Assembly (NCBI RefSeq): GCF_030409055.1
Contig: NZ_CP116619.1
Coordinates: 1,273,628 to 1,337,627, forward strand
Source: Trichocoleus desertorum NBK24
Lineage (GTDB): Bacteria > Cyanobacteriota > Cyanobacteriia > FACHB-46
DNA: 64,000 bases
Reading direction: 5' to 3'
Notes under the pieces: generated by a model
Seen by the model: only the letters and a program-made list of their open reading frames with translations
Database searches by the model: none
Told to the model about the DNA's origin: nothing
Made by a program: the position numbers and the translations under genes
Part shown: positions 25,673 through 27,547 of the stretch, in pieces
Layout: each line of letters begins with the position of its first letter
Numbering within the stretch: position 1 is the stretch's first letter

Positions 25673-27547
25673 ATGCAGAGATTCCAGGTTGAAGTCCTAA
25701 GGGCAACCACAAATCCCCAACAGGCGATTTATTTAGCCATGCACCAGGACTACAGCGAAGCCTGGGTCTACGGGGAGCGCGATCGCTGGCCCGATGAAAC
25801 TAAATGTGGCGAGTTAATCACCAAGAACCTACTGGCGGGAAATCGGGGTCACTACGGCCCTCTAGAACATCCACAAATTATCCTCAACTGCGGCTGGTTC
25901 CCCCACTCCACCATGCAGCAAATCCGCACGCATCGGGTGGGCGTGAGCTTTGATGTTCAATGTCTCGCTGGAGATACAGAAGTTACCTTCGTTAAAGCAT
26001 CGGGTAGCCTCCGCAAAATTAGAATTGCTGAACTCTATGACCTGTGGACCAATGGTGAAAAAGCCGTTAGGAATAGAAACATTCGCGGACGTAACGGTGA
26101 AGCACCTGGAGAGTACCGTCGTGATTGCAAAAGTCGCCTGAAGAAAATGTCGCTGCGGGTCTTGAATGAAGAAACTGGCATTTTCGAGACCAGCCATATT
26201 CAGGACATTTTCAATCAAGGCGTCCAGCCAGTCTATCGCCTCACCTTGGAAGATGGTCGCACTCTAGACTGCACCGAAAACCACCAACTATTCACGGCTC
26301 GGGGCTGGAGTCGCATGGGAGAAGCGCTGCAACTCCTGACCAATGCTGATGGTAAAGTCTTATCCTTCAAAGAAGATTGCCTTTTGATGACGAATGGAGT
26401 TGTCGTCGGCGAGGGACTATACCGCGATCGCCTTTGGCTCCAAGAACAGCTTGCTGCTGGGCTGACTGCTCGGCAAATGGCACAACAAGCAGGTTGCTCT
26501 GTTGAAGCAATCAAGAAATGGGTTTACCTACATGGTCTTAGCTTGAACAAAGCTAAATCAGGCACTCCCAACCCTTGGAACCGAGGACTGCGGGGCGCTT
26601 ATCGTCTACAACTTACTCCAGAGCAACGCCAACAACGCCGCTTGCGATCGCAGCAATTGACTCGTCGGGGTGCCAAGAGTAATTTCTGGAAAGGGGGCGT
26701 CACTCAAGAACGAGTGGCGATTGGGGCTTGGACTCGAACCACTGCTCCTCAAGTTCACGAAAAGTTCAACTACATCTGCCAGCGCTGTGGTGAATGGGGA
26801 GGTCAGCTCCATGCTCATCATTTACTGCCTGTTTACTCCCATCCCGAACAAGCTTACAACTTTGACAATCTAGTGACAGTTTGCACTCCTTGTCACCAAA
26901 CCATTCATAGTCAAGGGTTAGAGCTAGAGTTCGCTCAGAACTTCTTGCCTATTACCGAGCTACCTCCTAAGCCAAAACCCCAAGGTCGCAAGTTAAAAGC
27001 TCATCCGATGAAAGTCGTGCAGGTGAAGTATCTGGGACGACAGCAGACTTATGACATAGAAGTAGCGGGCCGCTGGCATAACTTTGTGGCGAATGGGGTG
27101 GTCGTACATAACTCATTTCGGTACACAGGACAACGCATTATTGATGTGGTGGAAGGCAAGCGAGATGTGGAAGATGTCTTCTATCTACGCCCCGTTGGTT
27201 TTTACACCGATCGCCAAGGCAAGCGCTACGAATACACCGAAGAACTGAGAAAGCAAGATTTGGAATGGTGCTTTGCAGGTTGCGAACGCTACAAACTCCG
27301 GATTGACCAGGGCTTCTCGGAGGAACATGCCCGCAGCTTGATTCCCTTTGATGTGCGGCAGCATTGGGTCATGTCGGCCAATGTGCGATCGCTGATGCAT
27401 TTGATCGACCTCAGATGGAAAGCAGATGCTCAACTGGAAGCCCAAAAACTCTGTGAGCTAATCTGGCCGCACTTCCAAGCTTGGGTTCCGGCGATCGCCG
27501 AGTGGTATGAAACCAACCGATTAAAGAAGGCTCGTTTAGCGCCCTAG
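25673..27547 (+). CDS. thyX: flavin-dependent thymidylate synthase ThyX, interrupted by an intein
   Basis: The 624-codon frame encodes a 240-residue ThyX extein (residues 1-96 and 481-624) that makes dTMP from dUMP with FAD and methylene-tetrahydrofolate. The ThyX signature RTHRVGVSFDVQ/SFRYTGQR is cut between Gln96 and Ser481 by a 384-residue intein; splicing should restore it. The C-extein ends with PFDVRQHWVMSANVRSLMHL, also typical. Without splicing the enzyme should be inactive, because the substrate-binding motif is broken. The neighbouring genes are unrelated to nucleotide metabolism. Cyanobacterial ThyX inteins have been described, so the site itself is not new. Confidence 0.96.
   Translation: MQRFQVEVLRATTNPQQAIYLAMHQDYSEAWVYGERDRWPDETKCGELITKNLLAGNRGHYGPLEHPQIILNCGWFPHSTMQQIRTHRVGVSFDVQCLAGDTEVTFVKASGSLRKIRIAELYDLWTNGEKAVRNRNIRGRNGEAPGEYRRDCKSRLKKMSLRVLNEETGIFETSHIQDIFNQGVQPVYRLTLEDGRTLDCTENHQLFTARGWSRMGEALQLLTNADGKVLSFKEDCLLMTNGVVVGEGLYRDRLWLQEQLAAGLTARQMAQQAGCSVEAIKKWVYLHGLSLNKAKSGTPNPWNRGLRGAYRLQLTPEQRQQRRLRSQQLTRRGAKSNFWKGGVTQERVAIGAWTRTTAPQVHEKFNYICQRCGEWGGQLHAHHLLPVYSHPEQAYNFDNLVTVCTPCHQTIHSQGLELEFAQNFLPITELPPKPKPQGRKLKAHPMKVVQVKYLGRQQTYDIEVAGRWHNFVANGVVVHNSFRYTGQRIIDVVEGKRDVEDVFYLRPVGFYTDRQGKRYEYTEELRKQDLEWCFAGCERYKLRIDQGFSEEHARSLIPFDVRQHWVMSANVRSLMHLIDLRWKADAQLEAQKLCELIWPHFQAWVPAIAEWYETNRLKKARLAP
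25961..27112 (+). mobile_element. ThyX intein with HNH homing endonuclease domain
   Basis: The intein begins at Cys97 (CLAGDTEVTF, block A) and ends GVVVHN with Asn480, followed by nucleophile Ser481. Block B is TLDCTENHQLF (His204). The splicing F block is QTYDIEVAGRWHNFVANG. Between them lie an HTH-like segment (about 263-286, AGLTARQMAQQAGCSVEAIKKW) and an HNH endonuclease: CQRCGEW...HAHHLLPVYSHPEQAYNFDNLVTVCTPCHQTIH (about 369-412), with two CxxC zinc pairs. The HNH motif is complete, so homing activity is plausible. All residues needed for standard class 1 splicing are present. Confidence 0.95.

Follow-up and report, generated by a model that had tools for sequence, protein, structure and literature searches.

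Inteins with an HNH endonuclease form a family to which the Ssp GyrB intein belongs and which was reportedly described by Dalgaard et al. in 1997 (cited in PMC5050341). An intein in the ThyX protein of Trichodesmium erythraeum (Ter ThyX) is said to have been described by Liu and Yang in 2004 (cited in PMC4649490). A mini form of the Ter ThyX intein spliced to about 100% in E. coli (PMC3620165), and ThyX (TdS) inteins with HNH have been published from mycobacteriophages (PMC5050341). ThyX inteins and HNH inteins are thus both published kinds, and the intein studied here is a well-preserved representative of a widespread, ordinary type. It was found in a stretch of 64,000 nucleotides from Trichocoleus desertorum NBK24, the whole of which is called the window. 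The features of the locus, numbered from the first letter of the window, are the following:

25673-27547, + strand: ThyX-intein ORF of 624 aa, a stop-free read-through of ThyX, intein and ThyX
25673-25960, + strand: N-extein, ThyX residues 1-96, last residues RTHRVGVSFDVQ (ORF reading, Pfam and NCBIfam)
25961-27112, + strand: intein of 384 aa (ORF codons 97-480), C1 to HN384 (residues and Pfam)
25961-26401, + strand: N-terminal splicing region with C1 and block B, T105-E-N-H108 (TIGR01445 over cut-off; invariant in 67/67 same-site inteins)
26417-26545, + strand: predicted helix-turn-helix (HTH) module, intein residues 153-195, one copy (family profile matches and structural model)
26567-26698, + strand: basic linker PWNRG...SNFWKGG, residues 203-246 (NUMOD3-like by eye only; low model confidence)
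26777-26914, + strand: HNH nuclease core, residues 273-318, CxxC/HH/N/CxxCH complete (PF01844, E 6e-8; residues kept in 41/41 full-length relatives)
26984-27112, + strand: C-terminal splicing region with D365, H373 and H383-N384 (TIGR01443 over cut-off)
27113-27547, + strand: C-extein, ThyX from the +1 Ser of SFRYTG, including the stop codon

The sequence-only reading had placed an intein at exactly these coordinates, between Gln96 and Ser481, and both Pfam and NCBIfam agreed with it. The insertion follows Gln96 of ThyX, so that the dUMP/FAD signature is divided as RTHRVGVSFDVQ/SFRYTG. With the ORF as query, Pfam gave Thy1 in two pieces (7.3e-32) and Intein_splicing (1.4e-11) over the cut-off, and also an HNH match over the cut-off (1e-7), whereas in NCBIfam thyX, intein_Nterm and intein_Cterm each scored over the cut-off. 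The joined exteins make a 240-aa protein that is a TIGR02170 equivalog with the RHRx7S-type motif of ThyX and shares 99% identity with the uninterrupted ThyX found in a same-genus species (G387), which excludes chance or a misreading of the split gene.

The splicing domain consists of residues 1-147 and 342-384, between which the HTH, the linker and the HNH are accommodated. All splicing residues are present, as had been read from the blocks and the terminal HN/S junction: C1, T105xxH108, D365, H373, H383-N384 and the +1 Ser, among them the Cys1, TxxH, penultimate His, terminal Asn and +1 Ser expected of a class 1 cis-splicing intein. The HNH core, which had been called apparently intact, is complete (C273xxC276, H286-H287, N303, C308xxC311-H312); its zinc-binding CxxC pairs and the separate HTH recognition module are those of an HNH homing endonuclease. 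The HTH itself was weak in the window sequence alone (HTH_31, E 0.34), but across the intein family HTH_23 was matched in 16 of 36 members (best 1.8e-9), and the earlier suggestion of an HTH-like segment before the HNH gained further support from the AlphaFold model. In this model (mean pLDDT 81, pTM 0.52, 36-sequence alignment) the splicing parts are beta-rich, helices lie at the HTH (153-195) and at the HNH, and the linker is ill-defined. The best Foldseek matches were solved inteins, namely Npu DnaB (4o1r, TMt 0.85), Ssp DnaB (6frg, TMt 0.80) and Mtu RecA, and the window intein is accordingly predicted to have the HINT/intein fold.

We have little doubt that the element is a class 1, cis-splicing, bifunctional intein in thyX with a homing endonuclease. 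We infer its splicing, the DNA cutting by the HNH and the position of the cut as follows. The intein would excise itself after translation by an acyl shift at C1, transfer to the +1 Ser and cyclisation of N384, and excision would restore the signature RTHRx7SxR in the 240-aa flavin-dependent thymidylate synthase, the only one detected in the genome. The HTH-linker-HNH part would serve as the homing endonuclease, cutting or nicking intein-free thyX near codons 96/97, and repair would copy the intein into the empty thyX along with some flanking donor DNA. A search that was positive in nine reference genomes found no thyA-type synthase in this genome (99.99% complete), therefore splicing is probably needed for dTMP synthesis in T. 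desertorum NBK24. It is reasonable to assume that substrate binding is restricted to the spliced ThyX. In the class as a whole, ThyX was detected in 212 of 388 genomes.

The sequence-only reading was right that ThyX inteins are known in cyanobacteria: the window intein and the published Ter ThyX intein are alike in residing in a cyanobacterial ThyX, the working splicing domain being that of Ter ThyX. The two may occupy different sites, that of Ter ThyX lying five residues upstream, if loci L141-L148 include Trichodesmium; in these loci, which come from low-GC genomes of one cyanobacterial family, the intein precedes SFDVQ and has a different endonuclease region. The thyX genes of L141 and L146 have an apparent third intein, LAGLIDADG-like by eye, which ends ...VIVCGN before CIEHPQ (frames upstream of CIEHPQITFN). 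The intein of phage Gizmo (YP_008060891.1) resembles the window intein in its ThyX host, HNH and HN/S junction, but differs in its upstream site (RHRSGF/SYNEESGRY), in its sequence (about 31% identity) and in that no HTH module aligned. Gizmo shares this second site, which lies five residues upstream (before SFDVQ/SFNEF), with relatives of the window intein in Actinomycetota, Geothrix and Anaerolineae. Related upstream-site inteins in Actinomycetota, Geothrix, Anaerolineae and Chloroflexi MAGs were seen at L058, L065, L067, L069, L074 and L097; all have an HNH except L097, which looks like an HNH-less derivative. The Ssp GyrB intein also has an HNH in place of a LAGLIDADG nuclease, in another host protein.

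Scans of cyanobacterial genomes and GTDB contigs yielded 67 cleanly readable inteins at the exact window site, a survey biased to query-like inteins and including a few near-duplicate loci. Whether an HNH form at this site had been described was left open by the sequence-only reading, which proposed a search for same-site inteins in cyanobacterial ThyX: same-site HNH inteins proved common in public cyanobacterial genomes, but a full-text literature search, with most subscription papers outside its coverage, returned no publication describing one. An HNH is carried by 41 of the 67 (>340 aa), all of which keep every splicing and HNH residue, and a mutated catalytic residue was seen in none of the 41. 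The other 26 are deleted or remnant forms, three of them (259-311 aa) with HNH fragments or remnants and 23 (≤250 aa) with the HNH mostly or entirely gone; the splicing residues are retained in 67/67. Read from these sequences, the pattern of HNH decay is clear: the nuclease appears either intact or deleted, not point-mutated.

The nearest same-site inteins (75% identity) are those of Nostoc sp. TH1S01 and CHAB 5844, and these, together with Fortiea LEGE XX443, Picosynechococcus PCC 7117 and others, share the HTH-HNH layout at identities of 75% or less. Unlike the window intein with its single HTH, many public same-site inteins have two. In these 444-456-aa forms the tandem modules are homologous, with alignment scores of 84-121 as compared to at most 41 in 500 shuffles. 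We know of no description of such one-versus-two HTH variation. The duplication was seen in the long ThyX inteins of L008-L013 and L043-L062, and independent losses of one copy seem to have occurred in L042 and in L007. What is new is modest, and consists of the tandem-HTH variants, the full decay series and the use of the second ThyX site in other phyla and in mycobacteriophages. No match was found on plasmids, and a single-sequence query of IMG/VR viral contigs found no relative. A family-f6 cyanobacterium encodes a ThyX of a second, distinct type (L021:1032-2843), in which a related HTH-HNH intein is inserted at RHRSFCFQEF/SQRY, a position equivalent to the site in the window.

The signs of movement into empty alleles are all comparative: occupied and empty sister genomes, tree conflict and flank divergence. 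Eight 384-aa inteins (from the window, Leptolyngbyaceae, Oculatellaceae, a family-f12 host, Nostoc and Fortiea) make up a single clade in the intein tree (SH-aLRT 100), a grouping that their ThyX hosts do not share (AU p 2e-35). In Nostocales it is the other way round: the ThyX proteins group together, but the inteins do not make up a single clade (AU p 1.7e-4). In Planktothrix the intein dS was 0.06-0.13 versus 0.39 for the host, and in Nostoc L059/L062 0.11-0.21 versus 0.40, values so far below those of the hosts that they imply spread after host divergence. In Laspinema/Oscillatoria L042/L061 the intein dS was above the host dS. Since the intein value is lower than the host value in some pairs and higher in others, the site has been invaded repeatedly. 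The endonuclease dN/dS was 0.06-0.18 among the Nostoc/Fortiea relatives of 384 aa and 0.05-0.38 over all close pairs; by these ratios the endonuclease is under purifying selection in the relatives, the window's own branch being too diverged for a reliable dN/dS.

When the full and the empty allele of the window genus were compared, 18 of 32 codons differed within 16 codons of the site versus 47 of 208 elsewhere (p 1.7e-4). The 16-codon span was fixed before the pairs Leptolyngbya L050/L172 (p 4e-6) and Planktothrix L014/L119 (p 0.007) were inspected, which also had differences clustered in the flanks (combined 5e-7). Of 25 empty-empty control pairs none reached p<0.01; differences in the controls were slightly enriched around the site (mean +2 codons), hence a regional effect on the rate may account for some of the flank signal. 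The divergence of flanks between occupied and empty alleles is consistent with what co-conversion of donor flanks predicts, and a mildly raised regional rate may contribute to it. Among the hosts searched for a donor, none had flanks clearly matching those of the window. The codon class of Ser92, considered as a resistance or target marker, was unrelated to occupancy (Fisher p 0.52).

In the genus, sampled by three genomes from family and order searches, the site is found in three states: the full intein of the window, a 217-aa mini-intein in G386 and an empty site in G387. In the mini-intein, an in-frame RPK stands in place of residues 152-321, which span exactly the HTH-to-HNH part. Between the window and G386 the intein dS was 0.56 compared to a host dS of 0.24 away from the site (Fisher p 7e-4). 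It is possible, though somewhat doubtful, that the full intein and the mini-intein of the sister were separate homing arrivals, each with its own co-converted flanks, so that all three stages of the homing cycle would be present in one genus at an apparently essential gene. If so, the genus would offer a natural system in which to test whether homing cycles run asynchronously across cyanobacterial species, and the tandem-HTH variants would show how the recognition module of a homing nuclease changes.

On these comparisons, the window intein is very probably a homing element that is active or was so until recently. It could instead be an intein that splices but whose endonuclease is already dead or immobile, and which persists since precise loss is impossible. 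Loss of all or part of the HNH in 26 of the 67 same-site inteins, that of the sister species included, and the low model confidence of the linker speak for such a state; we regard it as unlikely, because every HNH and zinc residue is intact in the window intein, decay seems to proceed by deletion and not by the point mutation that is absent from the 41 full-length relatives, and nuclease dN/dS is low in close relatives. The position within the catalytic motif of the one thymidylate synthase that was detected, together with the use of a redox-sensitive Cys1, could also point to a domesticated switch, in which splicing regulated by redox, temperature or light controls dTMP synthesis. This is very improbable, as the close same-genus relative G387 manages without the intein, and a sporadic distribution with recent transfer fits a parasite better.

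Vertical inheritance with thyX followed by lineage losses, with no horizontal movement, is hardly credible. Many Nostoc and Leptolyngbyaceae carriers are near neighbours in both trees, as such inheritance predicts, but the intein and host trees are in strong conflict, and the intein dS, lower than that of the host in Planktothrix, exceeds it in L042/L061 and the window genus. By these tree and dS comparisons, the vertical reading is already contradicted.

As a case of intein homing this one is clean: the host gene is metabolic, single-copy and apparently essential, and sister species provide the intact, deleted and empty alleles, which makes the homing-cycle model directly testable. Its value lies in this comparative setting, three allele states in one genus together with signs of repeated recent homing; in addition, a robust splicing domain in a gene selectable by thymidine prototrophy is a convenient assay.

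Outside the window, the dnaX intein of the same genome (G000:C1:1577067-1578131, + strand; L004:582-1649, L179) contains an out-of-frame ORF for a 355-aa LAGLIDADG_2 endonuclease (PF03161, E 4e-20), which overlaps the middle of the intein, a part that is open and apparently meaningless. This arrangement recurs in ten other cyanobacterial genomes (L180-L189); the nearest published precedent found is a phage methylase insertion, not itself an intein, that contains a 'hidden' HNH out of frame (PMC11855218). The intein frame was free of stops across the whole endonuclease ORF in 9/9 tested, and synonymous-codon shuffles of four of these contained means of 4.6-6.7 stops (P at or below about 0.002). 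The dN/dS of the endonuclease frame was 0.14-0.24, as compared to about 1.0-1.4 in the overlapping intein frame.
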